From NCBI RefSeq assembly GCF_014197535.1, contig NZ_JACIFV010000005.1, positions 124,001-188,000 on the forward strand: a stretch of DNA of 64,000 nucleotides, in the 5' to 3' direction. The notes below the pieces were generated by a model. It was not told the origin of the DNA. It ran no database searches and saw nothing but the letters and a program-made list of their open reading frames with translations. The stretch is from Rhizobium aethiopicum. GTDB taxonomy: Bacteria; Pseudomonadota; Alphaproteobacteria; Rhizobiales; Rhizobiaceae. A program made the position numbers and the translations under genes. Below, in pieces: positions 33,802 to 52,500 of this stretch (positions within the stretch are counted from its first letter, which is position 1; each line of letters starts with the position of its first letter).

Positions 33802-34827
33802 TCACATGCCGGCGCCATAGATGCCGTCGATCGCTTCCGCGACCGCGATGAAATTCTCGGACGCGGGATCGTAGCGCTGGCCTCCGGCGAGCTTTCTTGC
33901 CCAATCTACGGCAGCCCGTCCGCCCCAGTCGTCGGGAGGGATGGCCAGAGTTTCTCTCGAAGTGCCGGACATCCTGACGGCCGTAAAATCGTAGAATGAG
34001 CCATCGACATTCCTGAAGGAGGCGCCTCCCTCGGTTCCGAAGAAATCGGCGCCGATCTCGGCGTCACAGCCGGCGTTGAGGCGCCAGGAGCATGTCAGTC
34101 GGATGATTTCGCCGCCGGCAAGCGTCAGCGTTGCGGCCGCAAAATCCTCGACCTGACCTTTGTTTTCAAGCCGTTTCCCGCCCGCTCTCAAGCCGCTCGT
34201 GACGTTGGTGACGGAAGGAAAATCGAGGCACCATAAGGCCAGATCGACGAGGTGGACCCCGAGATCGATGACACAGCCGCCGCCGGACTGGTGCTTGTCA
34301 TAGAACCAGGGCTTGTCAGGGCCAAAGGCGTTATGAAAGGTCAGATCGGCGGCAAAGATCTTTCCAAGAGCATTCGAACGGATGAGCTGCCGGATCTGCT
34401 GCATGCCTTGCGTGTGTCGATAGGAAAGATCGACGCCAAGCAGCCTGTCGGCGGTTCTGGAAGCATCGACAACAGCCCCGACCTCGGATGCCGTTCGGCC
34501 AAGCGGCTTCTGGCAGAAGACGGCAAAGCCTGCCCCGAGGGCGCGGATGGACTGTTCGGCATGTGCGGCGCTCGGCGTCGCAATGACGATTCCGTCGAGC
34601 TCCAGGTCAAGCAACGCGTCCAGATCGGAAACGATCATGGCATCGGGGGCCAGTGCCGCGGCCTCCCGCGCCATGTCTGCGGAAGGATCGGCGATAGCGA
34701 CGGCTTTGGCCACGCCGCTCTCGAGGATCGCTTTCATTCGATGCCGGCCGATCCACCCTACGCCGAGAAAGCCGAGCTTCAGCCGTTTGGCGGTCGCCGC
34801 ATTACCCTCGGAAATCAACACATTCAT
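33802..34827 (-). CDS. Gfo/Idh/MocA-family sugar oxidoreductase
   Basis: A 341-residue NAD(P)-dependent oxidoreductase. The N-terminal Rossmann motif is GVGWIGRHRM (about residues 22-31), and the catalytic-site Lys is in CQKPLG near 115, the EKP equivalent of the family; the C-terminal half is the mixed-sheet substrate domain. It would oxidise or reduce a sugar or cyclitol hydroxyl. Its start overlaps the stop of the zinc dehydrogenase (ATGA), so the two form a unit diverging from the glycan cluster; it probably supplies a modified sugar. Confidence 0.83.
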   Translation of the reverse strand: MNVLISEGNAATAKRLKLGFLGVGWIGRHRMKAILESGVAKAVAIADPSADMAREAAALAPDAMIVSDLDALLDLELDGIVIATPSAAHAEQSIRALGAGFAVFCQKPLGRTASEVGAVVDASRTADRLLGVDLSYRHTQGMQQIRQLIRSNALGKIFAADLTFHNAFGPDKPWFYDKHQSGGGCVIDLGVHLVDLALWCLDFPSVTNVTSGLRAGGKRLENKGQVEDFAAATLTLAGGEIIRLTCSWRLNAGCDAEIGADFFGTEGGASFRNVDGSFYDFTAVRMSGTSRETLAIPPDDWGGRAAVDWARKLAGGQRYDPASENFIAVAEAIDGIYGAGM

Positions 34828-35813
34828 GAATATTGCACCAAAGCCTTGAGAAAACCGTCCGGCCGGTCGCGCGTCGTGTTGAGGGCGTCGTCCAGCCTCT
34901 CCAGCGGATAGATATGCGTGTAGAGCGGCTGCGGATCGATGCGGCCCTGGCGCACGGCTTCTATGGCGTCGCGAATGCCTTTGATATAGACGGCCGGCTC
35001 GCGCTCATGAGCGTTGATGACGTCGAGCCCGCGCCAGTTCCAAAGCTGCATGTTGATTTGACGAGGCCCGTCCTGGTGATAACCGGCGATGATCAGTCGC
35101 CCCCGTTCCTTCGTAAGCTCGCCCGCCAGGTCGAGCGGCCATTGTTTGCCGACGGCTTCGATGACGCAGTCGCAGAATTTTCCGCCCGTAAGTGCTTTGA
35201 CGCGCTCGATGATGCGCCAATGATCGTCCATCGGAATGGTCTCGGCCGCTCCCATCTCTCTCGCCACCTCAAGGGAATAGGGCCGGCGCGAGATGGCGAT
35301 CACCCTTGCGCCGGCTGCCGCGGCAAGGCGGGTGAGGAGGGCGCCCAAGAATCCGATGCCGATGATGGCGACGGTGTGGCCGCGCTCGATGTTGCTGCGG
35401 CCGAAGATGTTCATGGCGCAGCCGAGCGGTTCGCCCGGAAAGGGCTTGCCATCCAATTCTTTCGGCAGTGATGCGACCATGGAGGCTTCGGCAATGTCGT
35501 GCGTGGCGTAGGCATGATAGGAAAGAGCAGCAACCCGCTCTCCGATCTGAATCCCCGTGACATCGGCGCCAATGGCGTCGACAATACCCCAGCCCTCGTG
35601 GCCTAGCCCACCTGCCTCGGTGGGGAACGTCATCCAGTCCGGTCCGGCCCAGGGCGTGAGGTTCGAGGCGCAGACGCCGCATCCTTCCAGTTTAACCCTG
35701 ACCTGGCCCGGACCAGGTTCGGGCAGGGGGCGGGTCTCCACCGAGATATGTCCGGGGCCGGTGACGATGGCAGCCCGCATGAGCCCGGCCTTCTGTGTCG
35801 CCGCAATGTCCAT
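34824..35813 (-). CDS. Zinc-type medium-chain dehydrogenase, sugar-linked
   Basis: A 329-residue MDR protein with an N-terminal catalytic domain (CGVCASNLTPWAG near residue 45, GHEGWG near 72) and a nucleotide-binding domain with IGIGFLGALL near 150. The structural-zinc Cys cluster of alcohol dehydrogenases is absent, as in bacterial sugar-dehydrogenase-like relatives. The ATG at 35813 has GGAGGA 7 bases upstream. First gene of a two-gene unit reading away from the glycan cluster, with the EcfG-type site at 35841 just upstream. Confidence 0.82.
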   Translation of the reverse strand: MDIAATQKAGLMRAAIVTGPGHISVETRPLPEPGPGQVRVKLEGCGVCASNLTPWAGPDWMTFPTEAGGLGHEGWGIVDAIGADVTGIQIGERVAALSYHAYATHDIAEASMVASLPKELDGKPFPGEPLGCAMNIFGRSNIERGHTVAIIGIGFLGALLTRLAAAAGARVIAISRRPYSLEVAREMGAAETIPMDDHWRIIERVKALTGGKFCDCVIEAVGKQWPLDLAGELTKERGRLIIAGYHQDGPRQINMQLWNWRGLDVINAHEREPAVYIKGIRDAIEAVRQGRIDPQPLYTHIYPLERLDDALNTTRDRPDGFLKALVQYS

Positions 35814-35840
35814 GAGATGTCCTCCATGTGGCACCCCTAG

Positions 35841-35865
35841 AACAATAGGCCTCCTGAAGAGTTCC
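35841..35865 (-). promoter_or_regulatory. EcfG-type promoter for the dehydrogenase pair
   Basis: GGAAC (35865-35861), 17 bases, GTT (35843-35841), minus strand; the ATG at 35813 is 27 bases further. Confidence 0.65.
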
Positions 35866-35902
35866 GGTAGAGCTCAAAGAAGTCATTGATGATGAAGTCA
35901 AT

Positions 35903-35942
35903 AAAGATGTCATTGAAGCAGGAAAGATGTCATTGAAGCAGG
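35903..35942. repeat. Tandem duplication of a 20-base unit
   Basis: AAAGATGTCATTGAAGCAGG occurs twice head to tail (35903-35922 and 35923-35942). The last GG of the second copy forms the start of the GGAAC -35 box of the glycan operon promoter. Confidence 0.9.
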
Positions 35943-35965
35943 AACTTTTCCATCCGCGTTCGGTT
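35941..35965 (+). promoter_or_regulatory. EcfG-type promoter for the glycan operon
   Basis: GGAAC (35941-35945), 17 bases, GTT (35963-35965). The first epimerase gene starts 46 bases downstream. Together with 35841 it forms a divergent stress promoter pair. Confidence 0.65.
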
Positions 35966-36011
35966 CGGCGCCTATCTCCGAAGCAAATTATTCAACCGGA
36001 CGGATCTCATA

Positions 36012-37115
36012 ATGACGATTTTGATAACTGGCGGGTGCGGCTTCATTGGTCGCCACGTTGCTGAAGAACTTCTGAACAACGGCTATGAGGTGCGCATCCT
36101 CGATGCGCTGATCGACCAGGTGCATGGCGATGCCGAAGTCAGCGTGCCTGATGGAGCCGAGATTATTCAAGGCGACGTCAGAGACAAGGACGCCGTGCGG
36201 GCGGCGCTTGCCGGTGTGAACGGCGTCATCCATCTCGCTGCCGAAGTAGGCGTCGGACAGTCGATGTACGAAATTGCCCGCTATGTCGGCTGCAACGACC
36301 TCGGCACGGCGGTGCTCCTCGAAGCCATGATCGGCCTTCCCGTCAAGACGATCGTCGTCGCCTCATCGATGAGTGTCTATGGAGAAGGGCTCTATCGGAC
36401 TGGGGATGGAAAGCGGCTCGGCTATGTCAGGCGACGCATGCAGCATGTCAAGCAGGGCCAGTGGGATCCGCTTGATCGGGACAACCAGCCGCTGACTCCG
36501 GTCGCCACCGATGAGGAGAAACCGGTCGATCTTGCGTCCATTTACGCTTTGACGAAATACGCCCAGGAGAGGCAGGTTCTGATTTTCGGTGAAGCCTACG
36601 GCCTGGATGCCGTCGCGCTGCGTCTCTTCAACGTGTTCGGTGCTGGCCAGGCGCTTTCCAATCCTTACACCGGCGTGCTCGCCAATTTCGGTTCGCGCCT
36701 CGCCAACGGCCAGCCGCCGATGATCTTCGAGGACGGCAGGCAGCGGCGCGATTTCGTCCATGTCCGCGATGTGGCGACAGCCTTTCGCCTGGCGCTCGAA
36801 AAACCCGCGGCAGCCGGCCACGTGATCAATATCGGCAGCGGCCAGGCCTATTCGATCGCCGATGTCGCGACGCTTCTCGCCGATGCCATGGGCGTGCCCG
36901 AGATTGGCCCGGACATCATGAACAAGGCGCGTTCGGGAGACATCCGCAATTGCTTCGCCGACATTTCCAAGGCGCGCGAACTGCTCGGCTTCGAACCGAA
37001 ATATCGTCTCGAAAATACCCTCGCTCCCTTCGCCGAATGGGTGCGGCAGACGGGGGCGGTCGACCGTGGCGCCGAAATGAAGCGGCAACTGGAAGAGCGG
37101 GGGCTGGTTTCATGA
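36012..37115 (+). CDS. NAD-dependent epimerase/dehydratase (extended SDR)
   Basis: A 367-residue extended SDR. NAD motif GGCGFIGRH (about residues 7-15), Ser in VASSMSVYGEG (near 118) and catalytic YALTK (178-182). The YGEG segment and long loop before the catalytic Tyr resemble dTDP- or UDP-sugar 4-epimerases. It should act on a nucleotide sugar in the cytoplasm. First gene of a plus-strand operon whose members overlap by four bases or are closely spaced, all encoding glycan functions. Confidence 0.85.
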   Translation: MTILITGGCGFIGRHVAEELLNNGYEVRILDALIDQVHGDAEVSVPDGAEIIQGDVRDKDAVRAALAGVNGVIHLAAEVGVGQSMYEIARYVGCNDLGTAVLLEAMIGLPVKTIVVASSMSVYGEGLYRTGDGKRLGYVRRRMQHVKQGQWDPLDRDNQPLTPVATDEEKPVDLASIYALTKYAQERQVLIFGEAYGLDAVALRLFNVFGAGQALSNPYTGVLANFGSRLANGQPPMIFEDGRQRRDFVHVRDVATAFRLALEKPAAAGHVINIGSGQAYSIADVATLLADAMGVPEIGPDIMNKARSGDIRNCFADISKARELLGFEPKYRLENTLAPFAEWVRQTGAVDRGAEMKRQLEERGLVS

Positions 37116-39154
37116 ACAAGGCCGGTGCTCGAGCATCCGATCACCAGGAGACGAGGCGGTTCGGTTTCGTCGAATGGTTCCGGCCCGGAGAATATGAGCG
37201 GGCTGAAGCCGCGTTGCCGGATATTCTGGAAAGCGGCGCCAGTTATCTCCGTACGCATCTTTCCTGGGCCGAATATCTGGCCCCTGGCGGCCAGCAATGG
37301 TTCGATTGGCTGATCCCGCGTATCGGCAGCGAAATCGATCTTCTGCCGTGCATACATTATACGCCGCCCTCTCTGTCCCGGACGGGCAGGTCTTCGGGCC
37401 CGCCGGTCGATCTCAAATCCTATGCCGATTTCGTCGATCACATCCTGACGCGCTATGGCCGCTATATCAGTCATATCGAGCTCTGGAACGAGCCGAACAA
37501 CCTGCTTGACTGGGACTGGCGCCACGACAGCGACTTCCTGCTTTTCTGCGAAATGGTCGGGAGCGCCGCCTACTGGGCGAAGCAGAGGGGCTACAAACCT
37601 GTGCTTGGCGGCCCGTGCCCCTTCGATCCCTATTGGCTCAATCTGATGGGCACGCGCGGCGTACTCGGCGTCGTCGACGCAGTCGGCTTCCACGGCTTCC
37701 CTGGAACCTGGGACAGTGAGGAGGCAAGCTGGGGCGGCTGGGACATGCATCTCGGAGAGATGCGTGGGATTATCGATCGTTATAATGCCGATGCAGAAAT
37801 ATGGATCACCGAAACCGGCTACTCGACCTGGCGCAATGACGAGATCGAACAGGCGCGGCGCTTTATCAGGGCGCTGAACGTGCCGGCCGATCGCATGTAC
37901 TGGTATTCATGGCGCGATGTGCCGCCGGATGTTCCGGTTCAGGAAGGCCTGTGGTTCGATCCCAGGCATTATCATCTGGGTGCTGTCGGTCACGACAATA
38001 AACCGAAGCTGCTTGCCCGCCTTCTCACGGAAGGAGGCGTCAAGAGGCTGGAGGAGGTCGCGGCCCTTGCCGCTCCCAATGTCGCCTCCGGCGCCGCGCC
38101 GATCGTCGTCACCGGCGGCAGCGGGTTTGTCGGCTGCAATCTCGCCGACCGCCTGCTCAGCGACGGCGAGGACGTCATCATTCTCGACAATCTGGCACGG
38201 TCGGGGGTCGATCAGAATCTCTCCTGGCTGAAAGAGCGGCATGGCGGGCGGGTGCATCCGGTCCTCGCCGACGTTCGCGACCTGCTAGGCATCGAAGCAG
38301 CCTTCAGGGATGCCAAGGCAGTGTTCCACTATGCTGCGCAGACGGCGGTGACCACCAGTCTCGTCGACCCGCTGGAGGATTTCGAAACGAACGCGCGCGG
38401 CACGCTCAATGTGCTGGAATCGGTTCGCAGGGCAGGCAAACGGGCTCCGGTCATCTTCGCCAGCACCAATAAGGTCTATGGCGCTCTCGACGATCTCGGC
38501 ATGATCGAACTCGATGATCGTTATCTTCCCGAAGACGAGACCATCAGGACGCAAGGGATCGGCGAGGACCGGCCCCTCGATTTCTGCACGCCTTACGGAT
38601 GTTCGAAGGGCGTGGCCGACCAGTATATCCTCGACTACGCGAAATCCTACGGCATCCCTGCCGCCGTCCTGCGGATGAGCTGCATTTATGGACCGCGCCA
38701 GTTCGGCACCGAGGACCAGGGCTGGGTGGCGCATTTCCTGATCCGTGCGCTCGGCGGCGAACCCATTTCCATCTACGGCGACGGCAAACAGGTTCGCGAT
38801 ATTCTCCATGTCGATGATGCCGTCGCTGCCTATCGGCTGCTGCTTTCCAATATTGAGCGGGTCAGCGGCAGAGCCTTCAACCTCGGCGGCGGGCCGCGTA
38901 ACGCCGTCAGCGTCCTCGCGGTGTTGCGCGAGATCGAAGAGCTTGCGGGCCGTCCTCTCGAAACCAGTTTTGGCCCATGGCGCGCCGGCGATCAACTCTA
39001 TTTCGTGGCCGACACGACGAAGCTTGAACGGGAAACCGGCTGGCAAGCCGGAATCGGATGGCGTCATGGTTTGCGGCACCTCGCCGAATGGCTGATCGCC
39101 CATCGTTTCGGCGGCCGGCAGGTCCGCAGGGAAAAGCGGAAGGCATCGGCATGA
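37112..39154 (+). CDS. Fusion: glycoside-hydrolase-like (clan GH-A) domain + nucleotide-sugar epimerase
   Basis: A 680-residue two-domain protein. Residues about 15-320 form a TIM-barrel glycosidase-like domain, with acid/base Glu in WNEPNN (near 127) and nucleophile-position Glu in WITETGYS (near 233). Residues about 330-665 are an extended SDR with TGGSGFVGCNLADRLL, STNKVYG and YGCSK (495-499); PRQFGTEDQGWVAHF resembles CDP-paratose 2-epimerases. No signal peptide, so both halves are cytoplasmic. The hydrolase half may trim or transfer the sugar the epimerase makes. The ATGA overlap with the previous gene fixes the start. Confidence 0.85.
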   Translation: MNKAGARASDHQETRRFGFVEWFRPGEYERAEAALPDILESGASYLRTHLSWAEYLAPGGQQWFDWLIPRIGSEIDLLPCIHYTPPSLSRTGRSSGPPVDLKSYADFVDHILTRYGRYISHIELWNEPNNLLDWDWRHDSDFLLFCEMVGSAAYWAKQRGYKPVLGGPCPFDPYWLNLMGTRGVLGVVDAVGFHGFPGTWDSEEASWGGWDMHLGEMRGIIDRYNADAEIWITETGYSTWRNDEIEQARRFIRALNVPADRMYWYSWRDVPPDVPVQEGLWFDPRHYHLGAVGHDNKPKLLARLLTEGGVKRLEEVAALAAPNVASGAAPIVVTGGSGFVGCNLADRLLSDGEDVIILDNLARSGVDQNLSWLKERHGGRVHPVLADVRDLLGIEAAFRDAKAVFHYAAQTAVTTSLVDPLEDFETNARGTLNVLESVRRAGKRAPVIFASTNKVYGALDDLGMIELDDRYLPEDETIRTQGIGEDRPLDFCTPYGCSKGVADQYILDYAKSYGIPAAVLRMSCIYGPRQFGTEDQGWVAHFLIRALGGEPISIYGDGKQVRDILHVDDAVAAYRLLLSNIERVSGRAFNLGGGPRNAVSVLAVLREIEELAGRPLETSFGPWRAGDQLYFVADTTKLERETGWQAGIGWRHGLRHLAEWLIAHRFGGRQVRREKRKASA

Positions 39155-40263
39155 GCGAACATGGACGAAGCAAGGGGCACCGCCGCGTGCTGATGACGGT
39201 TGACGCCATCGGCGGCGTCTGGCGCTACGCCATGGACTTGGGCGCAGCCCTGAAATCGAATAATATCGAGGTTGTCTTTGCGGGGCTGGGGTCTTTCCCG
39301 GCAGACGACAAGGTCGCCGAGGCCGGCCGGGTCGGCAAGCTCGTCTGGCTGGATGCGCCGCTCGACTGGACGGTCGAGAATGAAGAGGCAGTTGCCGAAG
39401 TTCCGCGGCTGATCGCCGATCTCGCGCGCCGCGAACAGGCCGATCTTCTGCATCTCAATCTGCCGTCGCAGGCGGCGGGCATGGAAACAAACCTGCCGAT
39501 TGCCGTGGTTTGCCATTCCTGTGTCGTCACTTGGTTTGCCGCCGTCCGCGGAAGTGAAGTGCCAAAGGACTGGCAATGGCAGTACAGGCTGAACCAGGAG
39601 GGCTTTGCATGTGCGGACGCCGTGATCGCGCCAAGCCGCAGCCATGCGAGAGCGATGGAAGCGGCCTATGGAACCATCGGAAATCTGCAGGTCGTTCACA
39701 ACGCCAGCGCCCTTGAGGCTTCCGACGAGCCCAAGCAGGACTTTGTTCTTGCCGCCGGGCGCTGGTGGGACGACGGCAAAAACGGCGCCGTGTTGGATAA
39801 GGCTGCAGCTATGACGCGATGGACGGTGGCGGCGGCCGGCGCGACCACCGGCCCGAACGGCCAGACCATGCGATTTCGCCATGCCGATTACCGAGGCGAG
39901 CTTTCGCATCAGCGGATGAGCGCCTTGACGCTGCAGGCGGCCATCGTGGCCTCGCCGTCCCTCTATGAGCCGTTCGGTCTTGCCGCTCTCGAGGCGGCGC
40001 GGGCGGGCGCGGCCTTGGTGCTTTCTGATATCCCCACCTATCGCGAGATATGGGACGGAGCCGCTCTTTTTGCCGATCCGCATCGTCCCGAGATCTTCGC
40101 CAATGCTTTCAATACGCTTGCCGACGATCCGCAGCTGCGCGCTGCGTTCGGACGAAAAGCGCGTGCCAGGTCCGCCGGCTTCAGCGTCGAGGCTCAGGCA
40201 GAGGCGATGTGCTCGATCTATTCCGGCATGTCCGCCCGCGATTTTTCAACAGCGGCGGAGTGA
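39151..40263 (+). CDS. Glycosyltransferase, GT4-like (GT-B fold)
   Basis: A 370-residue cytoplasmic GT-B glycosyltransferase. An N-terminal glycine-rich segment DAIGGVWRYAMDL (about residues 18-30) binds acceptor, and the C-terminal nucleotide-sugar region has SLYEPFGLAALEAARAG (about 270-286), with the E-x7-E pattern of family GT4. It starts in the overlap with the previous gene (ATGA). It would add one sugar from a nucleotide donor to a growing glycan; donor and acceptor unknown. Confidence 0.85.
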   Translation: MSEHGRSKGHRRVLMTVDAIGGVWRYAMDLGAALKSNNIEVVFAGLGSFPADDKVAEAGRVGKLVWLDAPLDWTVENEEAVAEVPRLIADLARREQADLLHLNLPSQAAGMETNLPIAVVCHSCVVTWFAAVRGSEVPKDWQWQYRLNQEGFACADAVIAPSRSHARAMEAAYGTIGNLQVVHNASALEASDEPKQDFVLAAGRWWDDGKNGAVLDKAAAMTRWTVAAAGATTGPNGQTMRFRHADYRGELSHQRMSALTLQAAIVASPSLYEPFGLAALEAARAGAALVLSDIPTYREIWDGAALFADPHRPEIFANAFNTLADDPQLRAAFGRKARARSAGFSVEAQAEAMCSIYSGMSARDFSTAAE

Positions 40264-40265
40264 TC

Positions 40266-41396
40266 ATGAAGTTCGTTTTCTACACCCATTCGCTGGTCTC
40301 CGACTGGAATCACGGCAATGCTCATTTTCTTCGCGGCGTCATGCGCGATCTCCAGCGGCGCGGCCATGACACGCTGGCGCTGGAGCCGCAGGATGCCTGG
40401 AGCCGGGTCAATCTGGTGAGGGACCAGGGGCCGGCCGCAGTCGAGGCATTTCACCAGGCATTTCCGCAGCACCGTTCGCAGATCTACAGCGAAAGATTCG
40501 ACCACGAAGCAGCGCTTGGCGATGCCGATGTCGTCATCGTCCACGAGTGGACGGAACCGCAATTGATCGAGAGGCTCGGCCGCATCCGGCGCGATGGCGC
40601 GATCTTCACCCTGCTTTTCCACGATACGCACCATCGGGCCGTTTCCGCCCAGGGCGACATCGCAGGACTGGCGCTTGACGACTACGATGGCGTGCTGGCC
40701 TTCGGACAGACACTGCGTGAACGTTATCTCAGAGCCGGCTGGGGAAAATCGGTATTTACCTGGCACGAGGCGGCGGACGACGCCCTCTTTCGGGCGCTGC
40801 CGGATATCGAGAAAACCGGAGACCTGATCTGGATCGGCAACTGGGGCGACGATGAAAGGTCCGCCGAAATCGGCGAATTCCTTATCCGTCCCGCGAAAGA
40901 CCTGAAGCTCGACACCGTCGTTCGCGGCGTGCGCTATCCCGACCATGCATTGGACGAGCTTCGCAAGGCTGGCGTCGCCTATGGCGGCTGGATCGCCAAT
41001 GCCGATGTTCCCGCGGCCTTCGCCCATCACAAAGCAACGATTCACATTCCGCGGCGGCCCTATGTCGAACATCTGCCGGGTATTCCGACCATCCGCGTCT
41101 TCGAGGCGCTCGCCTGCGGAATACCCCTGATCTCGGCGCCCTGGAACGACGTCGAACATCTCTTCGACACCGGCAGCGACTATTTGGTCGCCGGTGATTG
41201 CGAGGAGATGAAGAAAAGACTGCGCGATGTCCTCTCCGACACCGATCTGGCTGCGAGCCTTGCCGCCGCCGGGCTTGAAACAATCAAGACCCGTCACACC
41301 TGCCGCCACCGCGTCGACGAGCTTTTGGCCATCCTGGCGCGCTGTGGCACGCACAGGGTCACTGCAAACCTGCAATCCAGGGAGGCTGCCGAATGA
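40266..41396 (+). CDS. CgeB-like glycosyltransferase 1
   Basis: A 376-residue GT-B protein of the CgeB/Glyco_trans_1_2 type. It begins MKFVFYTHSLVSDWNHGNAH and carries the nucleotide-site segment IRVFEALACGIPLISAPW at about residue 275. It is homologous to the next two genes, which share the opening SLVS/SLSS-W-GNA motif. The start is 2 bases after the previous stop; its own stop overlaps the next start by four bases. Confidence 0.82.
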   Translation: MKFVFYTHSLVSDWNHGNAHFLRGVMRDLQRRGHDTLALEPQDAWSRVNLVRDQGPAAVEAFHQAFPQHRSQIYSERFDHEAALGDADVVIVHEWTEPQLIERLGRIRRDGAIFTLLFHDTHHRAVSAQGDIAGLALDDYDGVLAFGQTLRERYLRAGWGKSVFTWHEAADDALFRALPDIEKTGDLIWIGNWGDDERSAEIGEFLIRPAKDLKLDTVVRGVRYPDHALDELRKAGVAYGGWIANADVPAAFAHHKATIHIPRRPYVEHLPGIPTIRVFEALACGIPLISAPWNDVEHLFDTGSDYLVAGDCEEMKKRLRDVLSDTDLAASLAAAGLETIKTRHTCRHRVDELLAILARCGTHRVTANLQSREAAE

Positions 41397-42481
41397 AGAT
41401 CGCTTTTTACGGTTCCAGTCTCGTCTCCGCCTATTGGAACGGCGCCGCTACCTATTATCGCGGCCTGCTGCGGGCGCTGGCGGAAAAGGGTTACGAGATC
41501 ACTTTCTACGAACCCGACGTCTATGACCGGCAGAAGAACCGCGACATGGATCCGCCGGACTGGTGCAGGGTCGTGGTCTACGAGGGGACGATCGATGCCC
41601 TCAAGGCCGTGACAAGCGAGGCGGCCGAGGCTGATATCGTCGTCAAGGCAAGCGGTGTCGGCTTCGAGGACGATCGATTGCTGGAAGAGGTGCTGCGTCA
41701 CGCACGCCCGCACGCGTTGAAAATCTTCTGGGATGTCGATGCGCCGGCGACGCTCGCCGAACTCAGGGCCAACCCCGATCATCCATTGCGCCGTGCGCTC
41801 GCCGGGCTTGATCTCGTGCTGACCTATGGCGGCGGCGACCCCGTCGTGAACGCATACCGTTCCGTCGGAGCGGCCGAATGCGTGCCGATCTACAATGCGC
41901 TGGACCCGCAAACGCATCATCCGGTGCCGCAGAACTACCGCTTCGCCGCCGACCTCGGTTTCCTTGGCAACCGTCTGCCGGATCGCGAGACGAGGGTCGA
42001 GCATTTCTTCCTGGAACCGGCGTCGCGTCTGCCGAACCGGACATTCCTGCTTGGCGGGTCCGGCTGGCAGGACAAGCCGATCCCTTCAAACGTCCGCTAT
42101 ATCGGCCATGTCCCGACGCGCGATCACAACGCCTTCAACGTGACGCCGATGGCGGTCCTCAACATATCGCGTGCCAGTATGGCGGAGAATGGTTTTTCCC
42201 CGGCGACGCGGGTCTTCGAGGCGGCCGGCGCCGGGGCTTGCCTCATTACCGACTACTGGGAAGGCATAGATGTCTTTTTGAAGTCCGGCGAGGAGATCCT
42301 GGTCGCGCGCGACGGACAGGACGTGGCTGCCTTGCTCAGCGGCTTGTCCCACCAGTCCGCACGGGAAATTGGAGAAAGGGCGCGCCGGCGCGTTCTGGCC
42401 GAACATACCTATGTCAATCGCGCCGAAACGGCAGACGAGATTTTTCGCGCCCGTCTTGGCGCGCGGGAGGCGGCCGAATGA
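41393..42481 (+). CDS. CgeB-like glycosyltransferase 2
   Basis: A 362-residue GT-B protein paralogous to its neighbours. It opens MKIAFYGSSLVSAYWNGAAT, has FWDVDAP (acceptor-side region near 115) and TRVFEAAGAGACLITDYWEG at about residue 270. ATGA overlaps exist on both sides. The three CgeB-like copies have diverged strongly from each other, suggesting that each adds a different residue or linkage. Confidence 0.85.
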   Translation: MKIAFYGSSLVSAYWNGAATYYRGLLRALAEKGYEITFYEPDVYDRQKNRDMDPPDWCRVVVYEGTIDALKAVTSEAAEADIVVKASGVGFEDDRLLEEVLRHARPHALKIFWDVDAPATLAELRANPDHPLRRALAGLDLVLTYGGGDPVVNAYRSVGAAECVPIYNALDPQTHHPVPQNYRFAADLGFLGNRLPDRETRVEHFFLEPASRLPNRTFLLGGSGWQDKPIPSNVRYIGHVPTRDHNAFNVTPMAVLNISRASMAENGFSPATRVFEAAGAGACLITDYWEGIDVFLKSGEEILVARDGQDVAALLSGLSHQSAREIGERARRRVLAEHTYVNRAETADEIFRARLGAREAAE

Positions 42482-43578
42482 CGAGATCGCTCGACATCGT
42501 CTTCCTCGGGCTTTCCCTTTCCTCTTCCTGGGGGAACGGTCACGCCACGACCTATCGCGCCCTGATCAAGGGTCTTCGGCAGGACGGCCATCGGCTCTTG
42601 TTCCTGGAGCGGGACGTGCCGTGGTATGCCTGCCATCGGGATCTGCCTTCACCTGACTTCTGCGAGCTCGCCTATTATTCCGATATCGGCGCAATGATCG
42701 AGCGTCACGGTGAAAGGCTCGGCAAGGCCGATGCCGTCATCGTCGGATCCTACGTTCCCGATGGCGTGCTGCTCATCGACAGGCTCGAGGCGTTGGAGCT
42801 GAAACGCCTCTGCCTCTATGACATCGACACGCCGGTCACCCTCGCCAAGCTCGATCGCGGCGATGAGGAATATCTGGCGCTGCGGCAGGTTCCCCTGTTT
42901 GACACCTATTTCTCCTTCTCCGGAGGAAGGGTGTTAACGCGGCTCGAACAGAGATATGGCGCGCGCAGAGCCATCGCGCTCTATTGTTCGGTCGACGAGG
43001 GCCGCTATGCCAATACCGGCGAATCCACCTGTTGGGATCTCGGTTATCTCGGAACTTATAGTCCTGACCGCCAGCCGACACTGGAGAGCCTTCTCTTGGA
43101 GCCGGCACGCCGCCTGCCGTCGATGCGCTTCGTTGTCGCCGGGCCGCAATATCCGGCCGAAATCGAATGGCCGGCCAATGTCGAACGTATCGAGCATCTG
43201 CCGCCTGCCGATCATGCAGGCTTTTATAGCCGGCAGCGCTTCACGCTGAACGTGACCCGCAGCGATATGATTGCCGCCGGCTGGTCTCCCAGCGTGCGGC
43301 TGTTCGAGGCTGCCGCCTGCGGGGCGCCTATTATCAGCGACTTCTGGCAGGGTCTCGATGAGCTGCTGCCGGACGGCGAGGCTTTGTTCATTGCGCGCGC
43401 GCCGGAGGATGTCGCGGCGCTGCTGACGGAACTTCCCGACAGCGACCGTCTGGCGGCCGCCGCCGCAGCGAGAAAGCTGGTGATGAGCAGTCATACCGGT
43501 GCCGCACGTGCCGGCGAGCTCGTCAGGGCTCTTTCCGACCTGCCCGCCAAGCCAGCTTTCGACCGTATCTCAGCGTGA
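42478..43578 (+). CDS. CgeB-like glycosyltransferase 3
   Basis: A 366-residue GT-B protein. N-terminus MTRSLDIVFLGLSLSSSWGNGH; YDIDTPVTLAKL (near 104) parallels the FWDVDAP region of copy 2; nucleotide-site segment VRLFEAAACGAPIISDFWQG at about residue 272. ATG at 42478 overlaps the previous stop. An in-frame open stretch upstream to 41878 overlaps copy 2 and is rejected. The next gene follows after 12 bases. Confidence 0.85.
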   Translation: MTRSLDIVFLGLSLSSSWGNGHATTYRALIKGLRQDGHRLLFLERDVPWYACHRDLPSPDFCELAYYSDIGAMIERHGERLGKADAVIVGSYVPDGVLLIDRLEALELKRLCLYDIDTPVTLAKLDRGDEEYLALRQVPLFDTYFSFSGGRVLTRLEQRYGARRAIALYCSVDEGRYANTGESTCWDLGYLGTYSPDRQPTLESLLLEPARRLPSMRFVVAGPQYPAEIEWPANVERIEHLPPADHAGFYSRQRFTLNVTRSDMIAAGWSPSVRLFEAAACGAPIISDFWQGLDELLPDGEALFIARAPEDVAALLTELPDSDRLAAAAAARKLVMSSHTGAARAGELVRALSDLPAKPAFDRISA

Positions 43579-43590
43579 AGGAGAGTATCG

Positions 43591-44637
43591 ATGCTTCAAG
43601 TCAATCGTCGCGGAAAAGGCAAGACTGTTCTGGTGGCAGGAGGCGCTGGCTTTGTCGGCTCGCATCTCTGCGATGCTCTGCTCGGCCGTGGCGACACCGT
43701 CATTTGCGTCGACAGCTATATTACCGGCTCGCGCGACAATGTCAGGCCGTTGATGAACCATCCGAGCTTCCGGCTCATCGAACAGGATATCTGCAAATTC
43801 ATTGAAATCGGCGAACCGCTCGATCAGATCTATAATCTGGCCTGCGCCGCGTCCCCGCCGCAATATCAGGCGGATCCCGTTCACACGATGATGACGTGCG
43901 TCGCCGGTACGGGCAATCTGCTGGCGCTCGCCGAGCGGCACCGGGCCGCCTTTCTCCAGGCCTCGACGAGCGAGGTCTATGGTGATCCCGCCGAGCATCC
44001 GCAAAAGGAAGACTATCGCGGTAATGTCAGCTGCACAGGACCGCGCGCCTGCTATGACGAGGGAAAACGCGCCGCCGAAGCTCTTTGCTTCGACATGCTG
44101 CGTGGCGGCCGCGTCGACGTGCGGGTCGCCCGCATCTTCAACACCTATGGGCCGCGAATGCAGGCCAATGACGGCCGGATCGTATCCAACCTGATCGTGC
44201 AGGCACTCTCGGGGAAACCGCTCACCATCTACGGAAGCGGCATGCAGACCCGGTCCTTCTGCTACGTCAGCGATCTTGTCGGCGGCCTCATGGCGCTGAT
44301 GGATGTGCGGCCAAACCCTGGCGTGCCCGTCAACCTCGGCAATCCCGGGGAGTTCACCATCAACGAGCTCGCGCAGATGATCCGTTCGATGGTGCCGGTG
44401 CGAACGGCTGTTGCCTACAGACCTTTGCCGAAGGATGATCCTCAACGCCGCCGGCCCGATATTTCCCGCGCGAGCGAACTTCTCGATTGGCAGCCGACGG
44501 TGCCCCTTGCCGAGGGGCTCAGATCTACGATCGACTGGTTTGCCGCCAATTTGGACGATCGTCCCCGTAAACGCGTCGCTTCGCCTCGCCGTCATCGCGG
44601 CGCGGCTGCTTCGCAGGCTGCCCCCTTCGACAACTGA
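43591..44637 (+). CDS. UDP-glucuronate decarboxylase-like SDR
   Basis: A 348-residue extended SDR close to UDP-xylose synthases. It has GGAGFVGSHL (about residues 17-26), the NLACAASPPQYQADPVHT segment (near 87, typical of UXS), STSEVYGDP, CYDEGKR with catalytic Tyr and Lys (about 155-159) and RIFNTYGPRM. It would convert UDP-glucuronate to UDP-xylose or a related pentose for the adjacent glycosyltransferases. The C-terminal 20 residues are basic and extra. Same operon. Confidence 0.85.
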   Translation: MLQVNRRGKGKTVLVAGGAGFVGSHLCDALLGRGDTVICVDSYITGSRDNVRPLMNHPSFRLIEQDICKFIEIGEPLDQIYNLACAASPPQYQADPVHTMMTCVAGTGNLLALAERHRAAFLQASTSEVYGDPAEHPQKEDYRGNVSCTGPRACYDEGKRAAEALCFDMLRGGRVDVRVARIFNTYGPRMQANDGRIVSNLIVQALSGKPLTIYGSGMQTRSFCYVSDLVGGLMALMDVRPNPGVPVNLGNPGEFTINELAQMIRSMVPVRTAVAYRPLPKDDPQRRRPDISRASELLDWQPTVPLAEGLRSTIDWFAANLDDRPRKRVASPRRHRGAAASQAAPFDN

Positions 44638-44642
44638 CGCGG

Positions 44643-45386
44643 ATGCACGCGATGATGAACCTAGCTTTGCAACAGCGTATCAAAGAACTAGGCCCCTGGT
44701 TTCAGAATATTCGGTTCGGAGAGATCGAAACCGCGCCGGATCATATTCTCGGCGACTATCCAGCGTTCAAATGGGAACGCTTCAAGCATGTCGTGCCCAA
44801 GGATCTGGAAGGGCGCAGCGTTCTCGATATCGGCTGCAACGCCGGCTTTTATGCGCTGGAGATGAAGCGCCGCAATGCGGGGCGGGTGTTGGGCATCGAC
44901 AGCGATCCACGTTATCTCGAGCAGGCCCGTTTCGCCGCCGATCATTTCCGCCTCGGTGTCGAGTTCAGGCAAATGTCGGTTTACGAGGTGTCGAAACTTG
45001 GGGAGAGGTTCGATCTGGTGCTCTTCATGGGCGTGCTTTACCACTTGCGCCACCCGTTGCTAGCATTGGATCTGCTCTACGAGCACGTGGTCGAAGACCT
45101 CATGCTGTTCCAATGCCTACAGCGTGGCGAAGAGCATATTGCCACGCTTGAAGAGGACTACGACTTTTCGGAATGGAAGGTTTTTGATCGGCCGGATTTT
45201 CCGAAGCTGTTCTTTGTCGAAGAGCGCTTTGCCGCCGATCCCACCAATTGGTTCATTCCCAACAAGGCGGCGGTCGAAGCGATGCTGCGCAGCTCGGGCT
45301 TTGTCATAGAGGCCAATCCCGAGCGAGAAGTTTATCTCTGCCGCCGAGGCCGGCGGCCATACATGGTCGAGCCGCCGCCCGGTTGA
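44643..45386 (+). CDS. SAM-dependent methyltransferase of the glycan cluster
   Basis: A 247-residue class I methyltransferase with SAM motif VLDIGCNAGFYALEM (about residues 60-74), acidic loop GIDSDPRYLEQA and motif IV DLVLFMGVLYHL. It resembles the DUF1698/CmoB-like and TIGR04290-type methyltransferases found with glycosyltransferases. Likely O-methylates a sugar or lipid acceptor in the cluster's product. The first ATG is at 44643, with M4 and M5 also possible; no strong ribosome site is seen. It lies 5 bases after the SDR stop and ends the operon. Confidence 0.78.
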   Translation: MHAMMNLALQQRIKELGPWFQNIRFGEIETAPDHILGDYPAFKWERFKHVVPKDLEGRSVLDIGCNAGFYALEMKRRNAGRVLGIDSDPRYLEQARFAADHFRLGVEFRQMSVYEVSKLGERFDLVLFMGVLYHLRHPLLALDLLYEHVVEDLMLFQCLQRGEEHIATLEEDYDFSEWKVFDRPDFPKLFFVEERFAADPTNWFIPNKAAVEAMLRSSGFVIEANPEREVYLCRRGRRPYMVEPPPG

Positions 45387-46608: not shown

Positions 46609-47781
46609 ATGAATACGGCTTTTGACGAACTCGCGCAAAAAGCTGTCTTGGTCGTCGAGGACAATTACGCTCTCGCCAGCGAACTCGCATCGAAGCTGAC
46701 CGCAACCGGAATCAAGATTGTCGGGCCCGCACCGAGCGTCGAACGAGCGTTGCAATATATTGAAGATTCCCAAATTGAAGTTGCCATTCTGGATATCAAT
46801 CTCGGTGGAACGATGGTGTTCCCTGTCGCCGATGCGCTGGCGAAGCGCAATATCCCGTTCTTCTTCGCAACCGGCTACAGCCGCGACGTTGTGCCTCCCC
46901 GCTTTGCGGATCGGATTTTCGTGGAAAAGCCGCTGGACACGAGCGCGATTTACGCTGCCCTTTCCGATTGTCGAACTTCGACGGCGAAGTCATCAGGCGG
47001 TCAGAAGAATCTCGTTCTTTCCGCTCTTTCTCTGCGAGAAAATGATCTTATCCGGCCGCTTCTCAAGCAGGTTCAGCTGATTCAAGGCGAGGTTCTTGAA
47101 AAGCAGTTTGGAGAGATCACGACGGTTTCCTTCATTGAAAGCGGGACGGTCTCGCTGGTCGCCTCGTCTCTGGATGGCTCACAGGTAGAGGTTGGCCTTA
47201 TCGGGCGTGAAGGGGTAACCGGCACGGGGCTGTTGGAGGGCGATTGGCGCACTCCCTACAATCTGGTGGTGCAGACCGAAGGAACCGCGCAGCGCATTGA
47301 CATCGACAGCTTCCTTCGTCTGACGCAGAGGGCACCGCAGTTGCGCTCGCTTTCATCAACGTTTTCAAGGACGCTCGCAATTCAGATGGGTTATACGGCC
47401 CTCGCCAACGGCCGATATTCCATCGAACAGAGACTGGCCCGTTTGCTGCTTATGCTCGATGATCGATCGGAAAGCCAGGTGCTGCTTCTCACCCACGAGG
47501 ACATGTCTTCCATGCTCGGCGTCCGGCGTTCCGGAGTTACGGGCGTGCTTCCCATCCTGGAGGGCGAAAAACTCATCAGGTCGGTACGAGGCAAGGTGAT
47601 CGTCCTCGATCGCGAGGGCCTCATTCTCAAGGCCAATGGCTCTTATGGCATTCCGGAGGCGGAATACGAGCGGTTAATGGGGTTTTCATTGCGGGGCAGC
47701 GAGAATGTTAGAAGGGCTCATAACCAATCACGTCCTCACTTCTACAGCCCCCAAATTCCGGGGAGAGATAGCCGCTCATAA
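46609..47781 (+). CDS. Response-regulator receiver fused to Crp/Fnr-type regulator
   Basis: A 390-residue hybrid. Residues about 12-120 are a receiver domain (VVEDN acidic pocket, phospho-acceptor Asp in AILDINLGG near 62, Lys in FVEKPL). Residues about 140-265 form a cNMP-binding-like beta roll (LIQGEVLEKQFGE, GLIGREGVTGTGLL), and 270-350 a Crp-type winged helix with MLGVRRSGVTGVL as recognition helix. The effector pocket looks unlike CRP's cAMP site. It combines phosphorelay input with direct DNA binding. A HWE kinase is encoded 1.8 kb downstream, making partnership plausible but unproven. Confidence 0.85.
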   Translation: MNTAFDELAQKAVLVVEDNYALASELASKLTATGIKIVGPAPSVERALQYIEDSQIEVAILDINLGGTMVFPVADALAKRNIPFFFATGYSRDVVPPRFADRIFVEKPLDTSAIYAALSDCRTSTAKSSGGQKNLVLSALSLRENDLIRPLLKQVQLIQGEVLEKQFGEITTVSFIESGTVSLVASSLDGSQVEVGLIGREGVTGTGLLEGDWRTPYNLVVQTEGTAQRIDIDSFLRLTQRAPQLRSLSSTFSRTLAIQMGYTALANGRYSIEQRLARLLLMLDDRSESQVLLLTHEDMSSMLGVRRSGVTGVLPILEGEKLIRSVRGKVIVLDREGLILKANGSYGIPEAEYERLMGFSLRGSENVRRAHNQSRPHFYSPQIPGRDSRS

Positions 47782-49577: not shown

Positions 49578-52500
49578 ATGGCGTACGACGAACGGGACAT
49601 GGAGCAACAGGCAGGCGCGGCTGAGCTGGATCAGCACGAGCAGCCTATCGTGATCGTCGGGATAGCGGTGTGCGCTCGCTCGCTCCGTTCGCTCGAGCGG
49701 ATATTCTCCGACATCGGCGTTGGCCTCGGCGCATCCTACCTCGTGGCGGTGCGCCAGCAGGAGGGGCTCAGTGCAGCTGCCGTCCTTGAAATGCTGGCAC
49801 AGCAGCAACGACTGGCGGTGACGGTCGCGGTGGACGGAGAGCGTATCCTTCCGAATCATATCTACGTCGGCGGCTCCGACGATATGATGACCGTCGAGGA
49901 TGGTCATATCCGCATTCGGCCAGCCTCGGAACCCGTCGGCCATCGTGGCACGGTCGACACGATGTTGATCTCGCTGGCAGAACATGCCCATGAGCGCGCG
50001 ATCGCTGTGGTTCTGGCGGGTCTCGACAATGACGGCATCGCCGGGGTGGCGGCAACCAAGAAATTTGGCGGTCTGTCGATCACGGAGATAGGCGACGGCG
50101 ACGATCAATCTGCTGAGGAGGGAGGGGCGTTGGCAATCGCCGACTTGCGACTGCCGGCGAAGGGTATCGCAGCCCACATTGCGCTCTATGCCGGCAATGT
50201 CGTCGAGGAGGAAGACGCCGGCCTGGATGAGGAGCCATCGAGCGCCATCGAGGCACAGATCACGCAAATTGCTACGGTTCTTCGTAATGTCACCAGCCAT
50301 GACTTCCACGGATACAAGCGCGGCACCTTCACGCGGCGCGTTCAGCGGCGTATGCAGGTGCTGCAAATCGGCGATATCGATACCTATATCGAGCGGCTGC
50401 GCGCCAGCCGCGACGAAGTTCAAAACCTCTTTCAGGACCTGCTGATCGGCGTTACCCAGTTTTTCAGAGATCCCGCCGAGTTCGAAGCGCTGGAGCGTGA
50501 AATTCCGAGGCTGTTCGAGGGAAAGGAACCTAGTGATCAGCTGCGCGTCTGGGTGCTGGGCTGCGCGACCGGGGAAGAAGCCTATTCGATCGCGATGCTG
50601 CTGCGCGAGCACATGGCGACCATGGATTACCCCCCCGACGTGCAGATCTTCGCGACAGATCTCGATGCCCGCGCGCTGGGGATTGCGCGTGCCGGGCGTT
50701 ATTCCGCAGCGATAACCTCCCAGCTCCAGCCGGACCGGCTTGCCCGATGGTTCGTGCGTGAGGGCGACACCTATTGCGTCGTCAAGGAATTGCGGGAAAT
50801 GTGCATCTTCTCGCCGCACAACATCGTCAAGGATGCGCCATTCTCTCGAATCGACATCCTCTCCTGCAGGAACTTGTTGATCTATCTCGACAGCGAGCTG
50901 CAGAACCGGGTCATCCCGATCTTTCACTTTGCCCTCAGGCCGAGTGGTATTCTTTTTCTGGGTTCATCGGAAAACGTCACCCGCCACGCTAAGCTTTTCG
51001 CGCCCGTCGACCGAAAGAACCGGCTGTTTCGAAGGCTGGAGACGGCGACCCGCATCATTCCGGACTTCCCGCTCACTCCACGTCCTCGCAGCCCCGACCA
51101 TGCGCTTTCGGCGCCGGCGCCGATGCTGCAGACCGGCCGGCTGTCGGCCACGATCAGCCGCCAGGCAGAGGTCGTCGCCGAGCGATTCGCACCGGCCTAT
51201 GTCGTCGTCGATTCACACTATGACGTGCTGCACTTCTCGGGACGCACGGGCCGCTACCTCGAACCGGCTTCGGGGACTGCGACCCTCAATCTCCTGAGCC
51301 TTGCCCATCGTGATCTCAGGCTCGACATGCGATCCGCCTTGCAGCGTGCCACGACCGAGGCGGTCAAGGTCGAAGTTCCAAGGGTGCTGCTGCGCCAGGA
51401 CGATCGCACCTACGCCGTCAACATTATTGTCGAACCCCTCGGAAGCGGCGACGTCACCTCGCTGATCGTGCTTTTTCAGGATGCCGGACAGGTGGCCGAA
51501 GGGACGGCTCCTGACGGAGGAAGGCTGACGAGCGAAGAGCATGTTCAGCGTCTGGAGACCGATCTGCGCGTCACCCGAGATCGCCTTCAGGCAACGATCG
51601 AGGAGCTCGAATCGACCAATGAGGAGCTCAAATCTTCCAATGAGGAATATCAGTCGATCAATGAAGAGCTGCAGTCGGCCAACGAGGAGATGGAAACCTC
51701 GAAGGAAGAATTGCAGTCGGTGAACGAGGAGCTGCAGACCGTCAATGGCGAGCTTGCCCATCGCGTTACCGAACTCGATCGGACGAATTCCGACTTGAAG
51801 AACCTTCTCGAAGCGACGCAGATCGCCACTGTGTTCCTCGACAACGATCTGCGCGTCAGGAGCTTCACGCCGGCGGCGACGGAAATATTCCATCTGCTCG
51901 AAACCGACGTCGGGCGACCACTGGACCATGTCGTCTCGCGCGTCGCCTATCCGGAACTGCTGGACGATGTTCGCCTTGTCCTGAGAACGCTGGTGCCCGT
52001 CGATCGGAAAGTCAGCGATCCCGTTAATAATCGCCATTATGCTGCACGCGCCCTGCCTTACCGCAGTGTCGACAACTATATCAGCGGTGCTGTCGTCACC
52101 TTTACCGATCTGACCGCCACGTACGAGGCGGAGGTGGCGCTTCGACGGAGCGAGGAGCGACTGCAGCGCGTCCTGGAGACGGACGCGGTCGGGGTGATTT
52201 TTCTTCATCGGGACGGCGTCATATTCGACGCCAACGAGGTTTTCCTGAAGATGTCCGGCTACAGCCGCTCGCAGATGGAACGCGGCGAGCTGCACTGGCG
52301 TCGGCTGACTCCGGAGGAGCATCTCGCCGAGACCGAAGCCCAGATGGAGGCTCTGAAGGAGACCGGCAAGATCGGGCCATATGAGAAGGAGTTTTTCCTC
52401 GCCGACGGGACGCGCCGCTGGATGTTGATTGCCGGGCGTGATCTCGGCGATGGCACGATCGCCGAGTTCTGTATCGACATCTCGGCGCGAAAACAGGCGC

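Follow-up and report, generated by a model that had tools for sequence, protein, structure and literature searches.

A conserved ten-gene cluster with stress-type promoters in Rhizobium aethiopicum and other Alphaproteobacteria, possibly for a small methylated glycan

Main

The draft genome of Rhizobium aethiopicum (GCF_014197535.1; 6.49 Mb in 61 contigs) carries on contig 5 a cluster of ten genes in two arms that diverge from a common 177-bp region. We analysed it within a stretch of 64,000 nucleotides (contig positions 124001–188000, hereafter the window, in whose numbering unprefixed positions are given). Its genes encode a redox pair (an MDR dehydrogenase and a Gfo/Idh oxidoreductase) and, in the other arm, three SDR sugar enzymes (SDR1, SDR2 and a UDP-xylose synthase-like enzyme, UXS), a glycosidase domain fused to SDR2, four glycosyltransferases (one GT4, three PF13524) and a methyltransferase that is a member, over cut-off, of the NCBIfam family TIGR04290 (Table 1). 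The gene order is widely conserved, both arms are preceded by stress-type promoter motifs, and the product and function appear to be uncharacterised so far. We put the chance at about even that the cluster encodes a cytosolic small-glycan pathway under general-stress control, and our best reading of the product is an O-methylated, probably xylose-containing oligosaccharide.

Results

An earlier sequence-only reading of the window had described ten genes in two arms, and their number, strands, families and coordinates were confirmed. It had also proposed looking for the operon's gene order in other alphaproteobacteria, and the order was found there. A scan of genome contigs with the fusion protein, from which the 80 best loci (66–97% identical) were kept and which hence selects for the fused form, returned loci from Rhizobiaceae, Phyllobacteriaceae, Aurantimonadaceae, Devosiaceae, Paracoccaceae, Roseobacteraceae and others; the counterpart in Rhizobium esperanzae CNPSo 668 is 97% identical. 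The operon is colinear in 75 of the 80 loci, in 62 with the methyltransferase and in 13 up to UXS without an adjacent methyltransferase match. Of the other five, L047 (on a 13-kb contig) and L076 are cut short, UXS is missing from L051 and L060, and L081 has UXS on the opposite strand. MDR is present in 78 of the 80, and in 71 of these it lies divergently upstream of SDR1. The conserved order shows that these ten genes do not stand together merely by chance, which the sequence alone could not show.

TIGR04290 methyltransferases occur in 14 of 398 genomes of a phylum sample (own genome included; all 14 in one class), 16 of 385 of a class sample, and 12 of the 37 members of the genus in a sample of relatives (own included). 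Instances of the cluster are also found on pSymB of S. meliloti 1021, where the stretch from SDR1 to the methyltransferase gene covers about 242.4–251.0 kb, and on p42b of R. etli CFN 42, and a gammaproteobacterial one lies on a plasmid of Xanthomonas sacchari. The suggestion that this is not a standard rhizobial polysaccharide set was borne out. The set is no local oddity, being widespread in Alphaproteobacteria and including a methyltransferase with its own NCBIfam model. An extra gene inside the fusion, considered for six loci whose match spans about 1 kb more, was rejected: in these loci SDR1 and the fusion stand side by side, so that SDR1 probably matches the SDR2 part of the query. Bradyrhizobium-type clusters (L128, L151, L152) add a nucleotidyltransferase (PF00483), an annotated phosphopentomutase (PF01676) and a copy-C-like transferase, a hint of a pentose donor made from pentose phosphate.

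The sequence-only reading had proposed a divergent pair of stress promoters, and the related loci bear this out. In 74 divergent loci the pattern GGAAC-N15-17-NGTT was sought within 300 bases upstream; it was found before SDR1 in 70 and before MDR in 62, against 0.78 expected in each case from simple shuffles of the same stretches, and other 300-bp segments of the 80 loci contain it at a rate of 268/9868. These counts come from related loci and are hence not independent, although the loci belong to several families. In R. etli the consensus has CGTT as its final bases (PMC3892343); this strict form is rare here (5/74 before SDR1, 8/74 before MDR), and the two sites between the arms of the R. 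aethiopicum cluster, which face outward, end in TGTT and GGTT. In S. meliloti 1021 the motif precedes SDR1, MDR, Ino1 (myo-inositol-1-phosphate synthase, see below) and a pyruvyl transferase gene. The whole window has 18 matches against 3.25 expected from dinucleotide shuffles, and so looks like a general-stress-response island. General-stress-type (EcfG/RpoE2-type) promoters on both arms are supported, as a prediction, by the conservation of the motif. A direct repeat of about 20 bases (about 35900–35945) adjoins the operon's motif.

Among the enzymes, UXS is the most secure of the predicted assignments: in the PDB it is nearest to four UDP-glucuronic acid decarboxylase sequences (best 1.5e-105, all ≤1.1e-104), and the next entry follows only at 6.5e-37. 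SDR1 scores 156.6 bits with the GalE profile, under the cut-off of 262.3. SDR2 resembles C2-epimerases in sequence (9rl0, 2.4e-82; 1orr, 7.7e-76) and aligns over its full length with CDP-tyvelose 2-epimerase at 38% identity (superposition of the predicted model on 1orr: VIA Z 36.9, root-mean-square deviation 2.3 over 323 residues), a likeness that does not fix the substrate. Because no CDP-sugar 4,6-dehydratase is found among the ten genes at NCBIfam cut-offs, unlike in the CDP-tyvelose system, the substrate probably differs. Structure searches with the fusion model returned only epimerases among the matches listed and are uninformative for the glycosidase half. PF13524 copy B matches, in its own genome, only itself and its two operon neighbours (E up to 0.001). 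The methyltransferase shows similarity to CmoB, which suggests that it might use carboxy-SAM.

The redox pair has a counterpart of another kind. Where the window has MDR and Gfo/Idh, homologous clusters contain instead members of TIGR04295 (B12_rSAM_oligo), a model apparently named with an oligosaccharide in mind. Across 40 TIGR04290 genomes from the genus, phylum and class samples, MDR (E up to 1e-60) is present in 16 and TIGR04295 (over cut-off) in 22, no genome has both and two have neither (Fisher 2.4e-9, kinship ignored); the two are G040, with its methyltransferase on an 8-kb contig, and G573, which is 83% complete. Seventeen loci show both TIGR04295 and GT4, and in all of them TIGR04295 stands immediately between an SDR gene and GT4; in Xanthomonas sacchari MDR occupies this position, with Gfo adjoining. 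A concatenated tree of eight shared proteins (43 rows hand-chosen for spread; a quick LG+G4 tree with one support measure) forces at least five changes between the two states on well-supported branches. A tree of PF13524 copy B alone, from which 11 near-copy or incomplete loci and loci without a 300-residue CgeB match were excluded, needs seven changes, only one of them forced. The state is not associated with the fusion of the glycosidase. The simplest reading is that the redox pair and the B12 radical-SAM protein are two solutions of one step, although they could possibly be alternative decorations of the product.

The cluster is also linked to Ino1. Homologous clusters of Roseomonas, Azospirillum, Bradyrhizobium and Sphingobium contain Ino1 and a histidine phosphatase. 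In R. aethiopicum the only Ino1 lies in a block on contig 35 (L124:10860-18680), beside a second TIGR04290 methyltransferase and together with a phosphatase, a stand-alone glycosidase, an FrhB-like protein, a pyruvyl transferase and a conserved protein of 582 amino acids with no Pfam match over cut-off. Being on another contig, outside the window, this block was missed by the sequence-only reading. In S. meliloti 1021 the Ino1 block and the ten genes stand side by side in one 18-kb stretch, SDR2 has no glycosidase domain and Ino1 is one open frame (L185:15215-16339). In S. meliloti R28 (L119:7507-8594) the Ino1 matches are split over two reading frames, by either a real break or a sequencing error.

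Ino1 is present in 12 of 14 TIGR04290 genomes of the phylum sample compared with 25 of 384 others (Fisher 5e-12), and within the genus in 8 of 12 compared with 0 of 25, kinship being ignored in both comparisons. Among the 43 tree rows, none of the 24 with a fused glycosidase has Ino1 in the fetched stretch, compared with 17 of the 19 unfused rows; the remaining two (L131 and L132) have it on the same contig, about 37 kb and 3 kb beyond the stretch. L099 and L135, each with two in-frame matches that overlap by a few bases, were counted as fused, and L135 is outside the 43 rows. For six independent pairs, fusion and local Ino1 differ oppositely in five and show no difference in one, which is not significant (p 0.0625). 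An inositol acceptor is supported for the Ino1-bearing genomes only.

The stand-alone glycosidase of the sister clusters is a natural circular permutation of the fused domain, with strands 4–8 preceding strands 1–3. The fused domain has a clan-A layout, WNEPNN following strand 4 and TETG strand 7, and the glutamates of both motifs (E127 and E234), which stand where GH39 enzymes have their acid/base and their nucleophile, are invariant in 27 aligned rows. Its predicted model has strands at 121–125 and 229–235, with a pLDDT below 50 for some residues near E127. The nearest solved relative by profile is PslG (3.8e-6), beta-xylosidases being weak matches (0.0047 and worse), and no Pfam family is matched at E up to 10. 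All 28 stand-alone glycosidases taken from the fetched loci match the fused domain in two segments whose order is exchanged (widest limits among the 28: fused 119–310 on stand-alone 2–199, fused 6–124 on 186–302). Aligning the profiles of 19 fused and 19 stand-alone sequences gives the same picture (123–304 to 5–188, 4.8e-28; 12–118 to 191–295, 2e-11). In four proteins the moved part scores 104–117, with no score above 65 in 200 shuffles of each, and reversing the swap raises the local score from 204–258 to 286–338.

The stand-alone model (mean pLDDT 78.3, pTM 0.82) has eight strands and places E10 and E112 at strands 1 and 4, as the permuted order predicts. Its residues 1–295 align with TIM barrels (best Z 14.3, deviation 3.5 over 247, a GH20 enzyme); Foldseek gave poor superpositions on assorted barrels, and no GH39 entry is among the best 50 matches listed in the structure searches. 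For the stand-alone form, the gene starts match those in the records and adjoin the gene upstream; in Azospirillum the start overlaps the upstream methyltransferase gene by 4 bases. R. aethiopicum has both forms (stand-alone L124:15254-16192; fused, window 37112–38086), a natural pair for studying how well a TIM-barrel glycosidase tolerates cutting and rejoining.

Discussion

In the pathway that we infer from these gene sets, the UXS-like enzyme would supply UDP-xylose, and SDR1 and SDR2 would provide other nucleotide sugars through epimerisations of the C4 and C2 type. GT4 would begin a short chain, which the three PF13524 transferases would lengthen and the TIGR04290 enzyme would methylate. 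MDR and Gfo/Idh would oxidise and reduce one carbon, most simply to invert it, with the B12 radical-SAM protein taking the same place in lineages without the pair. The glycosidase domain may trim or transglycosylate an intermediate. Genomes with Ino1, R. aethiopicum among them, probably use an inositol as acceptor, and those that lack it may use another; the product could serve as a stress protectant.

Several observations weigh against this pathway or parts of it. None of the three SDRs reaches any listed NCBIfam cut-off. Among 20 more distant loci, 11 have the promoter motif at most 400 bases upstream of at least one checked gene, and nine lack it within 400 bases of the genes checked. The best PDB sequence match of Gfo/Idh is DgpA (1.3e-25), a glycoside dehydrogenase, to which it is closer than to the inositol dehydrogenases of solved structure; oxidation of a bound sugar would fit this likeness as well as oxidation of inositol. 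Eleven fused-type genomes have no Ino1 anywhere; in three of them the fetched stretch ends within the fused form. Of the eleven, G007, G008, G019, G033, G321 and G466 have iolB, and G371, G481, G536, G594 and G684 lack it too, so inositol scavenging through the iolB pathway is no general answer, and the fused type must obtain its acceptor elsewhere or use a different one. In Xanthomonas sacchari the cluster follows the lipid A and phospholipid genes msbA, lpxK, kdsB and pgsA, which hints at the envelope. Neither expression data for the cluster nor a description of it or its product was found in the open-licence literature searched, including PMC12542648, PMC3616915, PMC3892343, PMC6180224, PMC8877191 and PMC2912261. 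The cluster genes likewise go unmentioned in the main texts searched for them, partly by guessed locus tags, and a search of the open-licence literature gave no paper that names TIGR04290. The sole locus-tag match, SMb20231 (an ABC transporter protein), apparently lies outside the cluster.

That the product is small, as the sequence-only reading proposed on the grounds that polymerase, flippase and export genes are missing, fits what we found, and its interpretation is partly supported. The ten genes include no priming phosphoglycosyltransferase, flippase, polymerase or ABC exporter and, by hydropathy scan, no membrane protein, and a membrane-type open reading frame lies inside the span of only 1 of 78 compact related loci. 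An exopolysaccharide cluster was ruled out, there being no polymerase or export gene. Alternatively, the glycan could be a surface or secreted one, completed on a lipid carrier, lipid A core or capsule and exported by proteins whose genes lie outside the cluster. The Xanthomonas neighbourhood would agree with this, as would the polysaccharide pyruvyl transferase and FrhB-like protein adjoining Ino1 in R. aethiopicum and S. meliloti and the pyruvyl transferase matches in L133 and L148, but no such match is found in the Roseomonas, Azospirillum, Bradyrhizobium or Sphingobium loci. The Psl operon of Pseudomonas aeruginosa, a glycan operon for a surface polysaccharide, likewise contains a GH39-type glycosidase, PslG, to which ours is nearest; here, however, the glycosidase is fused to an epimerase-like nucleotide-sugar enzyme, has no strongly hydrophobic N-terminus (hydropathy scan) and has no polymerisation or export gene beside it among the ten. 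With the membrane and export functions missing as well, we consider a surface glycan unlikely. A glycolipid head group, built by soluble glycosyltransferases on a membrane lipid, would need no exporter; GT4 enzymes often use lipid acceptors, and the Xanthomonas cluster follows the phospholipid gene pgsA. Neither the ten genes nor the intervals separating the core genes in annotated loci include an acyltransferase or any other lipid enzyme, and we consider this reading very unlikely.

The cyclitol branches of spectinomycin and hygromycin A use Ino1, a phosphatase, a Gfo/Idh dehydrogenase, a radical-SAM enzyme, a glycosyltransferase and a methyltransferase, and genes of these kinds occur in the sister clusters. 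A diffusible specialised metabolite, a signal or an antibiotic, would fit this likeness, but the window's cluster differs in having four glycosyltransferases, three nucleotide-sugar SDRs and general-stress-type promoters and no aminotransferase, and it has no resistance or efflux gene among the ten. Broad, order-conserved distribution and stress-type promoters would also be unusual for an antibiotic, and we regard this explanation as more improbable still. Among rhizobial compounds, rhizopines (3-O-methyl-scyllo-inosamine) are O-methylated inositol derivatives; their mos genes are presumably unlike the window's set.

The small-glycan pathway can also be put more boldly, in a form that we hold only tentatively: an undescribed, widespread stress pathway would make a methylated, pentose-containing oligosaccharide with an inositol core in many species, a bacterial analogue of the galactosyl cyclitols that protect seeds, with one step performed by two interchangeable, unrelated chemistries and a glycosidase in fused canonical and permuted forms. 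If true, many plant-associated and marine bacteria share an unnoticed stress metabolite that is accessible in S. meliloti 1021 and R. etli CFN 42. From comparison alone, the mutual exclusion of the redox pair and the B12 radical-SAM protein would then suggest what an orphan radical-SAM family does.

Locus layout and neighbouring genes

Plus-arm gene starts were refined from the reading frames. The seven junctions of this arm comprise four 4-base overlaps and three gaps of 2, 12 and 5 bases. The cluster end was set at 45386 because the next gene downstream, for a cytochrome c, stands directly 3' of the methyltransferase gene only in close Rhizobium loci.

Table 1 Features of the ten-gene cluster, in window positions
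Feature	Position	Strand	Family matches and remarks
Gfo/Idh/MocA oxidoreductase	33802–34827	-	PF22725, PF01408
MDR zinc-type dehydrogenase	34824–35834	-	PF00107, PF08240; 4-base overlap with Gfo/Idh
EcfG/RpoE2-type motif GGAAC-N16-TGTT	35841–35865	-	Precedes minus arm
EcfG/RpoE2-type motif GGAAC-N16-GGTT	35941–35965	+	Precedes operon
SDR1, GalE-like nucleotide-sugar epimerase/dehydratase	36012–37115	+	PF01370 (6.1e-53)
Fusion of GH39-like glycosidase domain and SDR2 (CDP-tyvelose-2-epimerase-like)	37112–39154	+	Glycosidase about 37112–38086; SDR2 about 38096–39103
GT4 glycosyltransferase	39151–40263	+	PF13439, PF00534 (found on longer frame 39058–40263)
Glycosyltransferase PF13524 copy A	40266–41396	+	
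Glycosyltransferase PF13524 copy B	41393–42481	+	
Glycosyltransferase PF13524 copy C	42478–43578	+	
UDP-glucuronate decarboxylase (UDP-xylose synthase, UXS)-like SDR	43591–44637	+	
TIGR04290-family methyltransferase	44643–45386	+	376.4 bits (cut-off 300)

Near the cluster, the window also encodes a response regulator joined to a Crp-type regulator (46609–47781, plus strand) and a CheB-CheR-PAS-HWE kinase (49578–53546, plus strand). A single gene at 24144–26126 (minus strand) combines protein-L-isoaspartate methyltransferase and erythromycin-esterase-like domains.

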